A program made the translations under genes and the position numbers. The notes under the pieces are model-generated. The model did no database searches and was not told the DNA's origin. It worked only from the letters and a program-made list of their open reading frames with translations. 64,000 nt of DNA, from assembly GCA_019915135.1 (NCBI GenBank), contig JAHLMK010000023.1, positions 310,001-374,000 on the forward strand, read 5' to 3'. This document shows positions 13,435 through 64,000 of this stretch, piece by piece. The DNA is from Strobilurus pachycystidiatus. Taxonomy: Eukaryota > Basidiomycota > Agaricomycetes > Agaricales > Physalacriaceae. The stretch's first letter is position 1, and each line of letters opens with the position of its first letter.

Positions 13435-16031
13435 TCAGTCGTTATTCAACGTGAAGACGATCATGAACTCACCCCACCATGCTGCGCGGAACCACCTTTC
13501 AGCACACCACGTCTCGCCAAGACTCAAAAACGAAGCTGATTGATGGGTCATGTTCAAAATGCAAAGGTCGACGTCGGCAACATATCCGAGCACCGTGCTG
13601 CCTATAGGGAGAGAAAACCGTTGGCTGCGTTTCGCAGTCATCGCGTTATCAATATTATTGAAGCCAGCAGCTTCAAGCCCTTTCCAGGCGTAGCGGATGG
13701 ATTGGGTGATCAGACCTAGATTGCACAGTTTGTTTCCCCGATGCTCTGTAACCTGCATCAACATAGAGTATGCGTATGAGAGGGGTGGGCGAGGAACAGT
13801 TTGAGGCGAGGAGTATGTGGCTTGCAGACTCTCGACGCAGTCTTTGACAAAGGATGGATCGACATTGGCGAGTCCGCGCGATTTGAGATGCATCTCCATC
13901 CTATCAGAAGCATCTTGACGCTTCGCAGCTTCCGTAGGACTATCGGCGCGTTCTACAACGCAGAGCGAACATTCGCAGTTACACTCCAGTAAGCTTCTCA
14001 ATGACTCCTCCCTTTCGGATAGGAAAGAAGCAGCGCAATACGGCAGAAATATCTCATCTCCCGCTGGAATAGACCGTGTCGCTCTGATGACCATAACGTT
14101 TCCGAAACATCTCCACACAGCGTTGGCGTGGCAGGCATGATTAAATAAGGACGGGAACGTGTACAGCGCGCTGGGCGTATGTCCAAATTGACCGAGCTTC
14201 TCAGGATTGGCGAGGGTCCGTGGTGTCACAACCTTTACTGAACGAGGAGAGAACGAGTTGTAAGTGATGACACCTTCAACTCTCGATACATCGACATTGG
14301 ATTTGGGGTGTAAGAGATCGATGACCGGCGCATTCGTCGAGTTACAGGACGGGGAGTAGTGGCCGGGAGGAGGGGAGTGCCTTGCGCCAGCGTACAAATG
14401 ATAGATCAGATCCTCCTCGCTAGGTGAAGCAAACAGTCTGGTGACCACTCGGTCAACGAGAGAGATCTGGGTCGTGTCCTGAGCTTTACGCGTCACGAAA
14501 TTCAAAGCAGTTATGAACTCGTTCTGCGGCAGTTCTTCAGGAGTCACGATGGCATATGGTTTTGCTACAACCTTAGATGATATTCAAGTTGTCCATCAGC
14601 TGGCATCCGGCTAAGACAGAAAGACTAACCAAAAGTTCGCCAACGCGCAAATCTCGTGCCGCTGTGACACCTCTACCGCCGCCACGTCCAGGGATTTTTG
14701 CCACCCGAATGTAAGGAGATATAAAGTCCGCGACGTCAAGGTCGACAAGCGCCTGTCCGCTCCTGCGGAACATGGATGTCCAAGCATATGTTCCTTTCGT
14801 CTCCTCTTTGATCCTGTCCAAACAGCGAGTCAGATACGCATTTGACTCTGAAGTATTGCGACCGCCATTGACCACAGTCTTGAATCGATGAAAGGCATTT
14901 CGATACTGTCCAAGGCCGTATTCGGCACAGGCGACTCGATATGTCGCCTTTGCAATGTCGGCATGGGCCATGCTGAGAGCACTCGTAGCATCTACTCGAG
15001 CAGCCTCGAACCACTTGAGGATGAGATAGGCCTGGGCACGATTTAGATGAATGACGTGCATAGATGGCTCAAGCTTCAGCGCATGAGTCCAAGCCATCAC
15101 AGCAGCGATGTATAACCCCTGCTTATAATAGATGTTCCCTTTCTGCTTCCAATCCAAAGCTGAGCGCGCCTTCAAGGCACTCGTATCTGGGGAGGGATTT
15201 TTCCACCGAGCCTCGCAGACTAGATGGTCCGAGTACCCGAGGAATACAACGTCGGAAGGAGAGTCTACTCTGATCATGGGATTGAGAGTAGGACCTGCAC
15301 CAGAGTTTTTCATCCATGGTTCGCGAACGGCCAAGACAGTTCCCACCGGAATGTGAGCATCCAGGCGATCCAGTGTAGCTTGGAAGAGGCCTGGAAGATT
15401 ATAGACAGCCAGAAGTATCGCATCTCCGTTGATATCTTCGACAGATAGTTCCACTCCCACAATTCTGACTGCGACGCGTGAGAATAGGAACGAGTTGGAT
15501 GAATTGACTTTACCTGCTCGAAGGAAAGTGCGACAAAGAAGAAAACGTCCCTAGAAACGAGTGATCAATCAGCGCTCTCAAGAGCAACCGCCACGGTACC
15601 TCGTGAATTTTGTGACACATCATTTGGTTCAAGGTGACTGTGTGGATGAACTGTCAGCTCCTTCATCGAAATAATGAGTTCGATCAGTTCATACTTGGCT
15701 GCAACTCGTTCAAGGGTTTGGAGGAGAACCGCTTGTCCTGTCCAATGTGCGTCTTTAACGTTCGAAAGCCTCCTTCAGCCCCGACAAGGCCAGCTACCAC
15801 TTGTTCGTTGCACTGCGCCAGGTAGTGGGGAGATGCCCCCGAGAACCGTGTGGGCTTGCACTGGGATTCCTTTTTCCATCTCTCTTCAGTCTCCTGGATC
15901 TCCCGTACATGATCATGATCCTCCGGGATCATTGTCGGGCTCTGAGTAGGCAGTCCCCCGTTTCGTACGAGCTCTCGCATCTGATCGGGGTCCAGTCCGA
16001 GGTTCGCCATCATATCGGCCAGAGATGGCAT
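13435..16031 (-). CDS. TPR-SET domain protein, putative lysine methyltransferase
   Basis: Five exons, 16031-15695, 15637-15600, 15550-15514, 15468-14630 and 14571-13435, give about 795 residues. Two exons are only 38 and 37 nt; together they read NQMMCHKIHEGRFLLCRTF, which aligns with the conserved N-terminal region of this fungal family. A TPR block (WKQKGNIYYKQGLYIAAVMAW, read as two shorter pieces, then LNRAQAYL and VACAEYGLGQYRNAF) lies around residues 255-350. The SET domain is split: its start (GRGVTAARDL) precedes the last intron and its core has FPSLFNHACHANAVWRCFGN, SIPAGDEIFLPY and a post-SET CNCECSLC. The Asn-His and Tyr residues of an active SET enzyme are present. The class resembles SMYD-like enzymes without a MYND finger. 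Substrate unknown; it could act on histone or other proteins. Confidence 0.82.
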
Positions 16032-20886: not shown

Positions 20887-22414
20887 CTAACGATATTCTG
20901 ATCCACAATCACCAATGGACGTTATGATCCTGCGTCCGTTCGAGAGGTCCAACACATTTTCTATGTCGGCCCGGTCTTGGTTTGTCAAAGTCCATCCGAA
21001 GACGTTCAAATTATCATCAATGTGTTCGGAAAGGCCTAGACGTGCACCTGGAAAGAGCAACTTCAGTCAAAGGCGCTATTGGAATGTTATCCAATAGACT
21101 TCACCGATGATGACTGCTCCTACAAACTCGTGGAAGTCGAGAACCCATCGTGTCGCGATGTTCGCGATGCTTTTTGTGTGGCGATCACCTATGATGCGCA
21201 GTATAGCCAAAAGTTCCTGGAACAGGTTCCAGCTGCCCCATGCCTTGATCATGTCAAGGTACTGGATGGCGCGCGCAATCAGCGGGCAGCCACTATCCAG
21301 ATTTTTATGAGTCCTTACCTTTCTCTGCGATGGCGTGAGATTGCCGGTATACGCGTCTGGTTCCGGTTCATGGAACCATCGATCTGACAGAAATCCACCA
21401 CACTAGAAGCGTACCCGTTAACTGAAAGGCTCCGGGCGCTTCTTCAGTCAATTGTACGCACGAGTGTCCCGTAAGTCAGCAACTTCAGGCCATGTTTAGA
21501 GCATACATCAGACATCCCATGCAGCGGCCGGGTATCAATCAACGAGAACTATCATGCCAGGGGCGTCAGGCGCCGGTGAATTCTCTCAACAGTTGCGACA
21601 TACCTGAACTTGGTTCGAGACGACGACACCCGGGCCTAACTGCGTACAAATTTCGTCCGTCCGGATTGTGTCGAAGTTACACAGGCCAATGGCAGTGATC
21701 AGCCCCGCCTCTTTCAGTGTATTGAGCTCTTGCAAGGCATCGAGATATCCTTTATCTTCGTAGTATTGCCAATGGAACTGAGAAAGTCAACAAGACATTC
21801 TGGAATCATAGAAAACCCAATACCTGAAGAAGATCTATCTTGGACGTTTGCATGCGGTACATTCGCTCACGGAGTGCGGTCTCGACCATGTCCCGGCTCG
21901 GTGCAACTTTCTTGAACACACACCATTTCGTGGCGCCAATGACGCGCGATGGGTACGGAAGACTATGTTTTATTTGGCCCTAATGAAGATCCATCAGCTG
22001 GTAATCTCTTTGCCAGTGTGGCTCATGTACACGCACAAAAAGAATTTCAGAGCTTCCATAGTGGTCCGCTGTAAGTGTAGACAATTAGTTACGTGTTTGT
22101 CAGCACCTTAGAGAGTGTGGGGACGTACCCTGTTGAGTGTGGACGCAGTGTTGAACGACAATGAATATCACATAACAGATGAAAGGTCTGCCGTACCATG
22201 TCTACGAAAAATGTCACGACGTGGTACGCAGAGTTACACTGCACCCACCGAAAGCCGTATAACCATGCTCGACATGACTTCCCATCGCCTGGCGTATCTG
22301 GGACACGGATGCGCTGCCCCAGGCGCTACTTGAAAGCTGCCAAAGACCCACCCATATACGCGGGACTTCAAAAGGCCCAAGCTGGAAGGTTTCGATGCGA
22401 CGAGTCGACGCCAT
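20887..22414 (-). CDS. Aldo/keto reductase with 5-nt and 1-nt exons
   Basis: Ten exons give one open frame of about 340 residues: 22414-22249, 22201-22197 (5 nt), 22129 (1 nt), 22068-22037, 21979-21824, 21777-21604, 21548-21462, 21402-21319, 21261-21105 and 21047-20887. All introns are GT-AG and 46-67 nt. The protein follows the AKR fold: FELGPFEVPRI-like start (actually QLGPFEVPRIWVGLW), the catalytic Asp and Tyr in FDMADHYGSSE, the catalytic Lys in GATKW, the His in FHWQYY, a barrel strand ITAIGLCNF, the NADPH-binding VIIGARLGLSEHI and a C-terminal IGDCGSEYR. The residues D-M-A, including the catalytic Asp, come from the end of exon 1 plus the two micro-exons. Without the 1-nt exon the frame fails. 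An upstream in-frame ATG at 22450 is possible. Substrate unknown. Confidence 0.85.
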
Positions 22415-26830: not shown

Positions 26831-28222
26831 TTATTTCTCATCCTCAGCAGCAAGGAGCGCCTGGCCCTTCTTGTCGCGATAGAAGAGGACTTCACCATCA
26901 TCTTCCACAAATTGGCACTTGTTGTAAGAGTTCCAGAGCGCCGCCCAGATGTTCTCATCCGACCACTGGTAGTGATCTCCGATGAAAGCACGAAGGTAAG
27001 CAGTGGCGGCGGGGCCGTGGTAGAAGGGCATTTTGGGGAAGAAATGGTGGACGACGTGATAGTGAGCGACATCGTGGAGGAAGAAGCGTCCCTGCCAACC
27101 AAGGAAAGGTCGGTCAACTAGAAAAGAACGGGTTAGAAAGCTGGGAAGGGAGGACGGGAAATTCTCACCGGTGGCAGCAGCTCCTCGAGTGAAAGACCAA
27201 GATGAGCCACGATAGTGGGGGAGCTTGGGGTCGGTGTGGTGCAAGTAAGTGATCATGATGACTAAATCGAAATCAGTGGGATCTGTATAGTGGACGGAGA
27301 GATATTCGTACACCAGTGGGAGACACACAACCAGGGAATGCCGTATAGAGAGACAACATTCCACCAGCCATAGAGACGGGCCGAAGCACTGACCAAGAAC
27401 ACCATGGTGGCAATTCCGATGTTGCTCAGAATAACGGCGTTGCGCTGGGCCGGAGTGAAGAGGATAGACTTAGTCGAGAAGTGATTGGTGTTCGCCGGGT
27501 AGTTGGGGTTGCCAGAGACGTTGAACACTATCAGAACCATCAGCGATGAAAACTTTGTCAGAAAATGGAAACGGCATACACAAGTAGGCAGGGAAGGCCA
27601 AGACTTGTTGACGGACGAGCATGTAGAGGGTGTAGAGGGGAGTGTCGCCGAAGTACTCCTCCCAGTCAACGCCGTGTTCCTTCTCAACTTCTTTAGACGG
27701 AAGGCCTAGACGGGTACGCGTCTTTGGCACGTAGACCTCGTCGCGTTCCATGCTGGCGTGGTTCATGTGGTGGCGATGATGAGAGATCTTCCAGCTGAGG
27801 TAGGGCGTCCACAAGGCGGTATGGGTAATGAAGCCGACGACATCGTTCACCAATCCGTACGGGCTGAACGCACCGTGGCCACACTCATGACCGATGACCC
27901 AGATACCGGTGAAGCACAAGCCTTGGAACCACCAGTAGGTGCACCAGGCGGCGGCGCGGTAAAGTGGGTTAGGAAGAGACGGAATGTGAGTGGCCAAAGT
28001 CCAAAAAAGAGTAGCTATCACGGCATCCCGGGCAAGGTATGCAAGACCCAAAGCCGTGTTACGGACGAAGAACTCTGGGGGGATGGCAGCGCGAATCTGC
28101 GCCAGAGAGTAAGGCAGGGGAGTGAAGGCGGCAGGCGTCGACTTGTCCTGCACTGGGGAGAGAGGCTTTCCGGAAAGCTTGGAGCTCTCGAGAGCAGTCG
28201 AGGTAACAGTAGCGGTGGCCAT
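26831..28222 (-). CDS. FAD2: Delta12 fatty acid desaturase
   Basis: Four exons, 28222-27580, 27527-27312, 27261-27169 and 27117-26831, give about 412 residues. It has the three histidine boxes of membrane desaturases: HECGHGAF, HHRHHMNH and HVVHHFFP, with paired hydrophobic segments around them, and the family stretches WWFQGLCFTGIWVIGHECGH and ITYLHHTDPKLPHY. It would turn oleoyl lipid into linoleoyl lipid in the ER membrane, using cytochrome b5 and a di-iron centre. The start at 28222 lies 32 bp downstream of a TATATAA box on the minus strand. The divergent neighbour is a paralogue, so the two genes may share regulation. Exon joins all agree with the conserved sequence. Confidence 0.93.
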
Positions 28223-28610
28223 TGTTGGGGTAGATTCGAAAGTTCATTGAGCATTATATACACCTAGAGAGAGTACCACGATTAAACGGGGATATACTTG
28301 GTCCAAGTCCCTGTGGTGTGATTAGACGTTTCGATAAACGCGTACCCGTTTCGAGATATCCAGTTTCTCAGAAATCTCGATTGATCTAAGATGAAGAGTG
28401 TGCCGAATGAGGAATCCGAACGGTCCGGGAGGAGGACCTCTGGCACCGCGCGTGACAATGCGCATATCCTCAACCGGGGCTAACGAACCTTTTGATTGCA
28501 AGTTCGCCTTGATCTTTGACTCTGGACCTGCTGTTTCTGTTTCCCATCTCCTGGTTTAAATAATACGCGAGGATCTTACAAAATGCGACCCCGCTTGCTT
28601 TGCAATCCTG
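28223..28610. promoter_or_regulatory. Shared divergent promoter of two desaturase genes
   Basis: The 388 bp between the two ATGs holds TATATAA at 28254-28260 for the minus gene and TTTAAATA near 28554 for the plus gene. There is no other gene in it, so control elements for both must lie here or inside the genes. Confidence 0.6.
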
Positions 28611-30055
28611 ATGGCGCCCCCAAAGACTGACTCCCTCGCTCCCATGTTTGATCTTGGAATCGACAAGCATTGGTACTCGCTCAGTGACTCGCCCGAGTAC
28701 ATCGAGCGCAAGAAGACACCCTTCGTCGTCCCCAATGTCACCGTCGCCGAACTCCACGCTGCTGTTCCTCCCGAGCTTTTCAAAAAGAGCACATTCTGGG
28801 GGCTCTTCTACGTTTCTCGTGCGGTGCTCTCAGCCTACGTGCTGTACTTGGTCACCCCCTACATTCCCCTTGCCGCTCCTTACGTCGGTTCCACGGGTGT
28901 ATGGGCTCTTTGGGCCACTTATTGGTGGACTCAAGGTCTTGTCCTTGGTGGTTGGTGGTGTCTTGCCCACGAGGCTGGCCATGGTGGTTTGACGAACTCC
29001 AAGTCAGTCCTCATTATCTTTTTGATAATGTCGAATCTAATGAATGTTCCAGGACACTTAATCACGTCCTCGGTTTTGCCCTACATACTGCTATCCTTGC
29101 TCCCTACCACGCCTGGCGCGAATCGCATCGCAAACATCACAAGGCCACGATGAGCGTTGAGCGGGATGAGAACTTCTGTCCCCGCACACGCTCAGAGTAC
29201 AATCTTCATCCTCTTACCTCCTCCCAGGACAATGACGAGGAGCTTGAGGATGGTGAACAAGTTGGATTCCTGCCTGACGGCGGCAAGGTTGGCACCATCG
29301 ATCCCCATGACCTATTTTCAGACGCCCCACTCTACAACATGATTCGTATGTTCATCATGCAGACCGTCGGATGGCAATGCTATCTGTTCAGAAACTCGAT
29401 GGGTAATCTCAAGTATCCTGCCGGCACAAACGTAACTATAATCTCTTTCGCGCGTTGAAATTATGCTCAATACACGACTTAGCATTTTTCGCCGAGTTCT
29501 CCTCTATTCCAACCGCGTCACCGCGCTGGTATCATTGCGTCTGACATCGGCATCATTGTCATGCTCTTTGTTCTCGGGCACTGGGCACGACAAGTCGGCT
29601 TCGCGACCTTCATGAAGGTCTACTTTGTCCCCTACATCCTTTCCAACCATCACATCGTGCTGCTCACGTATTTGCACCACTCCGATCCTACTCTTCCACA
29701 CTACCGAAAGTCGGAGTGGACCTTCGTACGCGGTGCATTGTCTACTTGCGATCGGCCGTTGTACGGTTGGATTGGTCGGGAAGTTATGTGCAACGTCAGC
29801 CACGACCACGTCGCCCATCACTTGTTCTCCCAAATTCCCTTCTGGAACCAACCTTACACTACTGAGTGTATCAAGAAAGTCCTCAAGGAGAAAGGCGAAT
29901 TCGGGGTGTACAACTACGATCGTACAAACACTTTCCGCGCGTTGTATAGAACCTTCACGCAGTGCTGCTTCATAGAGGACGAAGGAGACGTCGTCTTCTT
30001 CAAGAACCGAAACGGGTTGGCCCAAAGAGAGTTGGTCTCGTCTGCGGCGACGTAA
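28611..30055 (+). CDS. Second Delta12-type fatty acid desaturase (divergent paralogue)
   Basis: Three exons, 28611-29002, 29053-29431 and 29483-30055, give about 447 residues. Histidine boxes are HEAGHGG, HRKHHK and HVAHHLF, and LLTYLHHSDPTLPHY matches the other desaturase closely. Differences from the neighbour are an Ala in the first box, an acidic insertion after the second box (DNDEELEDGEQVGF and onward) and a longer N-terminus. It is probably a membrane-bound acyl-lipid desaturase of the ER; whether it inserts the same double bond or a different one (for example Delta15 or an unusual fatty acid) cannot be read from the sequence. The stop is followed directly by a run of TATATATG, probably in the 3' untranslated region. 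Confidence 0.9.
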
Positions 30056-63080: not shown

Positions 63081-64000
63081 TTATTCTATACATTCTTGGC
63101 ACTTAGAACCTGTCGGGAAGGTCCAAGGCCGGGCGGCCGAAAGTTGGCTGAAAGACGCGTCAAAGGTGATCATTCCGACAGAAGGGAAGGGATTTCGTAC
63201 AAGAGCCTCAGGCTTGTTATCCAGGATAGCGTCGATCTTCTCCATAATTTCTGGTGTGAGTTTAGGGATGACGTCCAATGCGCGCAGGTTCTCTTCGAGC
63301 TGCGCTGGCTTCGTAGCACCGAGGATGACGGTTCCGGTGTTGGGACTCTTAGCCACCCATGCCAATGCGAGAGCGGACATCGAGGTGCCTAGGTCTGTAG
63401 GTGGAACACATGAGTATGAATACTCGTCAGCGTAAAAAAAACGTCGTACTGGTCGCGAGCGTAGTAAGCTCCTTGACCTTGCGAATTTTCTCGAGACCTT
63501 CAGCTTCGCTCAGAGTCTTCAGCTGATCCTTGAAAAAGTCTTTGCCGGTATCGAAGCGAGAGCCTTCGGGGATACCGTCGTTGTACTTTCCAGTCAACAG
63601 GCCACTGGCAAGAGAAGACCAAGTCGTAGTGCTGATTCCGTAGTGCTTGTAGAGAGGTGCGTATTCCTTCTCGGGACGCTCTCGGTGCAGCATGCTGTGG
63701 AAGAATCATTCATATTTAGCTAGAGGATGAAGTGAATGAACAAACTGGTGTTGGCATTGCTCAGCAATGGGTCCAATCAGACCAAGCTTGTCGGCGACGT
63801 CTAGTCTCAGCATGAGTTGCTATACAAGTTCCAAGCAGAGACGCCACTTACGCCACGCCTCTTCTATTTCGACTGCAGCCCATTCCGACGTACCCCAATA
63901 ATGAGCCTAAAACATACGCATAATTGGTCACAAAGCATGGCAGATCGATACTAGATAAGACTTACCCAGCCTTGGTCGATCACGTAGTTGAACGCGCGTA
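63081..64000 (-). CDS. Aldo/keto reductase of the Kv-beta type, C-terminal part
   Basis: The gene runs off the right edge; its start lies beyond 64000. Exons in the window are 63394-63081, 63694-63450 and further pieces above 63760. The visible protein reads FNYVIDQGW at the edge, [22 protein letters not shown] then [41 protein letters not shown] and [39 protein letters not shown]. This is the order of the voltage-gated potassium channel beta-subunit-like reductases (AKR6-type), which are soluble NADPH-dependent enzymes in fungi. The catalytic Asp, Tyr, Lys and His are in the part outside or at the edge. The last residues before the stop at 63081 (after SVGMITFDA) look unusual for the family and may belong to an unseen intron. 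Confidence 0.85.

Follow-up and report, generated by a model that had tools for sequence, protein, structure and literature searches.

Single-nucleotide microexons are known in plants from at least two gene families, APC11 (PMC4674806) and VPS55 (PMC8831610), where they are backed by constructs, RT-PCR and conservation among land plants; here and below, comparisons with published systems draw on excerpts of the cited papers. For Arabidopsis APC11, Guo and Liu proposed that the flanking introns are removed via successive intron-defined splicing (PMC4674806), and VPS55 transcripts of some plants are spliced with or without the base (PMC8831610). In fungi, a one-nucleotide exon in the context AG-G-GT was described in February 2026 by Nelson and Syed in the Fusarium gene CYP621A, with 20 orthologues and 18 listed reads; by their account, no earlier case was known from a fungal gene (PMC12940212). 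In their proposal, the edge of an exon lost a base within a conserved motif, after which a cryptic AGGGT in the adjoining intron came into use (PMC12940212). A one-nucleotide exon has also been reported between group II introns of fungal mitochondrial rnl genes (PMC12308204). Very small exons of basidiomycetes have been reported from P450 genes of Phanerochaete (shortest 6 bp; PMC1184071) and from bglA of Sirobasidium magnum (shortest 5 bp; PMC9142197), and a 20-nt micro-exon takes part in a fungal switch, Trichoderma Xlr2 (PMC11121469). It should be added that, according to a 2011 survey, some annotated genomes, including those of three plants, list 1-bp exons without experimental support (PMC3064661).

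In this work we analyzed a gene of the basidiomycete Strobilurus pachycystidiatus that appears to contain an exon of this kind. It lies on the reverse strand of the window, by which we mean the whole 64,000-nt stretch of DNA that was studied (contig JAHLMK010000023.1, positions 310,001–374,000). The genome, of 51.8 Mb in 61 contigs, gave 11 hydrophobin matches and the 14 prokaryote controls gave none, in agreement with a filamentous fungus. The transcript of this gene very probably uses two adjacent micro-exons, of 5 nt and 1 nt, and encodes an intact aldo/keto reductase in which the sequence for Asp56-Met57-Ala58 is cut into G / ACATG / G / CG (Table 1). From the genomic sequence we infer that splicing proceeds in this way in the cell, as well as its order and the activity of the enzyme.

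The gene resembles Fusarium CYP621A in several respects: (i) both are nuclear fungal genes with one G between AG and GT inside a conserved motif; (ii) the base sits in an interval of 139 nt in F. graminearum and of 128 nt here, roughly double the length of an ordinary intron; and (iii) in both, an uninterrupted homologue serves as length marker (PMC12940212). They differ in that the Fusarium exon is documented by its orthologues and reads, whereas ours is found in one gene and is known from genomic sequence and paralogues alone; in addition, a 5-nt exon adjoins it here and the cut segment bears a catalytic residue. As in plant APC11 (where the exon is constitutive in Arabidopsis) and VPS55, a single base lies between canonical introns and was missed by annotation; no 5-nt neighbour of the plant 1-nt microexons is seen in the excerpts, in which a rice gene has adjacent exons of 5 and 12 nt (PMC4674806, PMC8831610). 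The Phanerochaete and S. magnum genes, from basidiomycetes as well, likewise combine short introns with tiny exons, but the available parts of those papers mention no exon of 1 nt. The rnl case shares the one base between two introns, but it concerns a mitochondrial rRNA gene and self-splicing group II introns. Fungal stwintrons also place two introns in one interval and are spliced consecutively (PMC9024468, PMC12403724); there, however, a splice element of the outer intron is interrupted by the inner one, whereas all three introns of the present interval are complete, with separate donors and acceptors.

An earlier reading of this DNA from its letters only (the sequence-only reading) had referred to one plant gene as the source of one-base exons, which was right as to plants but not as to the number of families, and had stated that none was described in a fungus, which the Fusarium gene with its RNA reads now contradicts. 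Among the matches listed in a search of open PubMed Central papers, none reported a 1-nt exon from a basidiomycete, and the present one is perhaps the first in that group. The known one-base exons make a very short list, on which this would be the second from a nuclear gene of a fungus and a more extreme case than before, with six coding bases spread over two exons (5 nt and 1 nt) between three introns.

Table 1. Exons and introns of the aldo/keto reductase gene (window positions; scores are those of the branch-site match)
Feature	Position	Strand	Length (nt)	Sequence or borders	Remarks
Exon 1	22249..22414	-	166	ATG at 22414 to TTC-G	Ends with base 1 of the codon for the catalytic Asp
Intron 1	22202..22248	-	47	GTGGGT..GTAG	Weak branch-site match, score 9
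Exon 2	22197..22201	-	5	ACATG	Bases 2-3 of the codon for Asp56; whole codon for Met57
Intron 2	22130..22196	-	67	GTACGG..ACAG	Weak branch-site match, score 9
Exon 3	22129	-	1	G	Base 1 of the Ala58 codon
Intron 3	22069..22128	-	60	GTACGT..ACAG	Strong branch-site match TGCTGAC, score 13
Exon 4	22037..22068	-	32	CGGACCACTATGG..	Remainder of the ADHYG motif, including catalytic Tyr61
Exons 5-10	20887..21979	-	156, 174, 87, 84, 157, 161		Introns between them 46, 55, 59, 57 and 57 nt

As the sequence-only reading had maintained, all ten exons stay open when the single G is included: the model comprises 1023 nt and encodes 340 aa without internal stops, and its stop codon ends at 20887. The boundaries proposed in that reading (TTC-G ending at 22249, then 22197–22201, 22129 and 22068 onward, with GT-AG introns of 47, 67 and 60 nt) proved exact to the base. 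All nine introns of the model are GT-AG and measure 46–67 nt. Of the Asp56 codon (G|AC), exon 1 supplies the G and the 5-nt exon the AC; of the Ala58 codon (G|CG), the G comes from the 1-nt exon and the CG from exon 4. The single base stands in ACAG-G-GTACGT (22133–22123), flanked by the AG and the GT of two canonical introns. The predicted mRNA from which all three introns have been removed reads TTCGACATGGCGGACCAC, corresponding to FDMADH. Exons 5–10 were recovered by splice alignment, except for the stop codon, and the protein part encoded by exon 1 could be aligned with three paralogues. The donor hexamer of intron 2 also serves as donor in one intron of the paralogue L026.

The identification of the product as an aldo/keto reductase, also made in the sequence-only reading, was confirmed by a match to Pfam Aldo_ket_red (PF00248) of 157.3 bits against a cut-off of 24. 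Its nearest solved relative by sequence is 1pz1, General stress protein 69 (E = 2.4e-18). Asp56, Tyr61, Lys86 and His122 are aligned with Asp, Tyr, Lys and His of 1pz1, and we take these four residues to be the catalytic tetrad of the family. D56, Y61 and K86 are invariant in the gene and its three paralogues, and H122 is found in three of the four sequences, with Tyr in L026. Six NCBIfam families match the protein, none of them near its cut-off (best 71.4 bits versus 425), and therefore no substrate is suggested.

Relatives of the protein with 35–44% identity, most of them over nearly the full length, are encoded by 78 bacterial loci (L049–L126); the subfamily is therefore common to the fungus and bacteria. 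A count of the motif among these relatives was discarded as circular, the motif itself having been the scan pattern, and none of the 78 loci held the second pattern. Of four stretches in viral contigs that fitted a pattern, none encoded a relative.

Three more members of the subfamily are present in the same genome, on contigs C19 (L026), C6 (L027) and C35 (L028), and were aligned to the window protein by a purpose-written splice-aware program. In all three the motif DMAD[HR]Y is uninterrupted and lies in one exon, and Asp56, Met57, Ala58, Asp59 and Tyr61 are invariant across the four sequences. With the micro-exons included, the window protein is 48–49% identical to the paralogues. The agreement extends to the nucleotide level: the C19 gene L026 reads GACATGGCGGACCACTA, identical by eye to the spliced product at 17 of 17 nt spanning all three junctions, while the bases immediately flanking this match differ. 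Judged by these uninterrupted homologues, the single base is required both for the frame and for the conserved motif. Four intron positions further downstream are common to the window gene and the paralogues; none of the positions of introns 1–3 was found in the three paralogues. Consequently, there is no conservation to vouch for these introns, which were either gained in this lineage or lost in others.

It should be mentioned that L027 (C6:948000-951200) and L028 (C35:138500-141800) are near-duplicate aldo/keto reductase genes, the latter on a small contig of 155 kb. Both contain a 205-nt intron directly after DMAD[HR]Y, at a place where the C19 paralogue has an intron of 47 nt. The models of all three paralogues include a 15-nt exon just past the LLQ intron, which the window gene does not have as a separate exon; it may be another micro-exon of this family. 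Its border is uncertain in L027 and L028, as the models give the intron after it a CAAG acceptor.

To estimate how often such an arrangement arises by chance, the 180-nt interval between exons 1 and 4 was shuffled with dinucleotides preserved, and micro-exons of 1–6 nt that restored exactly Asp-Met-Ala were counted. Such solutions were obtained in 29 of 300,000 shuffles with any GT-AG borders, in 2 of 300,000 with GTRNG donors and YAG acceptors, in 2 of 300,000 when intron length was limited to 44–70 nt and the sites were left free, and in 0 of 300,000 when both restrictions applied. A looser count that accepted any residue after Asp-Met gave 12 and 1 per 20,000 shuffles. Similarly, a usable one-base G exon at workable distances appeared in 810 of 50,000 shuffles of the 128 nt around it with any AG-G-GT, and in 43 of 50,000 with the consensus YAG-G-GTRNG. 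The micro-exon arrangement is more than chance. It is also unique: when up to three GT-AG excisions of at least 40 nt were allowed, nested ones included, the motif was obtained only from these three introns, and all six solutions were orderings of them. Splicing of the stwintron type was rejected on this ground, as no nested solution yields the motif.

The sequence-only reading had claimed that the frame is lost without the G. This is true if the 5-nt exon is kept (stop at codon 71), and dropping the 5-nt exon alone also leads to a stop, at codon 63; but the frame survives if both micro-exons are dropped. Such a double skip is equivalent to a single 180-nt intron (22248–22069) that joins ...GYTAF|ADHYG... 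and loses exactly Asp-Met, including the catalytic Asp. Therefore, the main contest is between a protein of 338 aa without the catalytic Asp and one of 340 aa with it. If the 180-nt intron were the true one, the tiny "exons" would be unused remnants in a gene whose product has lost its catalytic Asp. We regard this as improbable, even though the intron has canonical ends (GTGGGT..ACAG), has near its 3′ end the only strong branch site in these 180 nt and was preferred by our own splice aligner, which charges a fixed cost per intron; ordinary gene predictors may prefer it too. The skipped stretch holds precisely the missing codons between consensus splice sites, as only the above 2 in 300,000 shuffles did; without both micro-exons the Pfam score falls by 15.4 bits, to 141.9; all three paralogues have the Asp, Met and Ala; and a length of 180 nt is outside the range in which pairs of splice signals are in excess.

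This range was determined in 264 kb of the genome (the window and 20 stretches of contig C1), in which GTRNGT donors were paired with a branch site plus YAG and compared with a Markov null. Donor-branch-acceptor pairs at 45–69 nt numbered 98 against 38.9 expected. Most of the excess fell at 45–59 nt (78 versus 23.6 expected); it was small at 60–69 nt (20 versus 15.3), the bins to which introns 2 and 3 (67 and 60 nt) belong. At 70–399 nt there was no net excess (478 versus 510.1 expected), the 250–299 bin being somewhat high (90 versus 73.6). This length range is better matched by the three short introns than by a single intron of 128 or 180 nt. Long introns do occur in this genome, however: of the 27 that were modelled in the window gene and its three paralogues, 6 measure 90–205 nt, all of them in the near-duplicates L027 and L028.

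The branch sites give another picture. Introns 1 and 2, which are needed only by the micro-exon reading, have the lowest branch-site scores among the 27 modelled introns (9, the rest 10–13), and scores of 9 or less were reached in 2285 of 5000 shuffles of intron 1 and in 1264 of 5000 of intron 2. Being no better than in shuffled sequences, the branch sites do not support these two introns. In the same 264 kb we also looked for tandem strict introns separated by 0–30 nt: no two were 1 nt apart, where chance would give about 2.9, and small gaps were not enriched. The survey counted only introns with a branch site, which leaves out introns 1 and 2; it therefore misses the present gene and is uninformative on others.

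Inclusion of both micro-exons, by which the transcript would encode the intact enzyme, is the best explanation of the locus. In this respect the sequence-only reading holds, the paralogues agreeing with it at both the protein and the nucleotide level; it overlooked the in-frame double skip, and its view of novelty is outdated. The two forms might also coexist as an all-or-none cassette, with an active enzyme when both micro-exons are included and a full-length protein minus Asp-Met when both are skipped, which we consider unlikely. In that case splicing would switch the enzyme between an active and a catalytically dead state, and partial inclusion would lead to an early stop. The in-frame all-or-none arrangement is the most distinctive feature of the gene; regulation through it is only a possibility. 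The locus also illustrates the risk of mis-modelling, since the splice aligner took the in-frame skip and the catalytic residue was silently lost. More exons of this kind may hide in fungi with short introns, and paralogues with an uninterrupted motif offer a cheap way to find them.

As regards the mechanism, the three short introns would be recognised singly, across the intron (intron definition), and excised one after another, since simultaneous assembly of two spliceosomes on a one-base exon is improbable. Removal of either intron 2 or intron 3 would make the G part of a larger exon.

A likely origin of the one-base exon, after the proposal of Nelson and Syed for Fusarium, is the loss of a base at an exon edge beside a longer intron, followed by the adoption of a cryptic AG-G-GT within that intron, which would have restored the frame and the motif. 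This scenario predicts a junction at which one added base would suffice: the sequence reads ACATG|GTACGG, and ACATGG|GTACGG would serve a single intron of 128 nt. Since base loss fits the junction, the natural rival is that the assembly lacks one base or that the gene has recently become a pseudogene. According to this rival, exon 2 was ACATGG, followed by the 128-nt intron, and a G was dropped from the run either in the assembly or by a recent mutation, so that the gene is an artefact or a young pseudogene. The pseudogene alternative had already been raised in the sequence-only reading, and we consider it less likely than functional micro-exons. The junction ATGG|TACGG is indeed one G short of ATGG|GTACGG in a short homopolymer, introns of 90–205 nt exist in this genome, and base loss is what the Fusarium authors proposed as the source of such exons (PMC12940212). 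However, a deletion does not account for the YAG-G-GTRNG that lies in phase midway along the 128 nt (the above 43 in 50,000 shuffles), and no second lesion was found in the 340 codons or at the borders of the nine introns. Nor are the two halves of the interval detectable duplicates, which would otherwise provide another source of AG-G-GT: the global similarity of introns 2 and 3 was not above that of 2000 shuffles (p = 0.28). Taken as a whole, the deletion reading appears very doubtful.

The same mRNA would result, with no one-base exon, if ACATG(G) were followed by one intron of 128 nt whose borders are non-canonical (GT-CA or TA-AG). By inspection its spliced sequence is identical; two canonical introns of ordinary length fit instead, and all 27 modelled introns are GT-AG, which is weak evidence as the models allowed only such borders. 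We find this variant hardly credible.

Other sources of the interval were considered and rejected. With regard to duplicated halves, only a 10-nt repeat of 90% identity at both donors was found, and no tandem repeat. A repeated intron of the introner type was dismissed, as the 180-nt interval matches only itself in 51.8 Mb at E up to 10 (very common words skipped). No contiguous copy of the spliced sequence is present in the window; four matches with 2–3 mismatches are attributable to chance (at least four in 10 of 100 shuffles). As a separate observation, the surroundings of the 1-nt exon at 22124–22133 (ACAGGGTACG) and the 5-nt exon with its donor at 22192–22201 (ACATGGTACG) agree at 9 of 10 bases, possibly by chance because both contain a donor site.

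Several other probable genes were noticed in the window. Adjacent open frames at 13435–15550 on the reverse strand gave a SET-domain match and TPR matches below the cut-off, and are possibly one SET/TPR gene split by an intron. Divergent open frames at 26831–28243 (reverse strand) and 28560–30055 (forward strand) match fatty acid desaturases and probably represent two neighbouring desaturase genes; PF00487 was matched in three of the four frames tested, one of these three being just under the cut-off. A further aldo/keto reductase match is located at 63222–64000 on the reverse strand and extends past the edge of the window to C23:374275.
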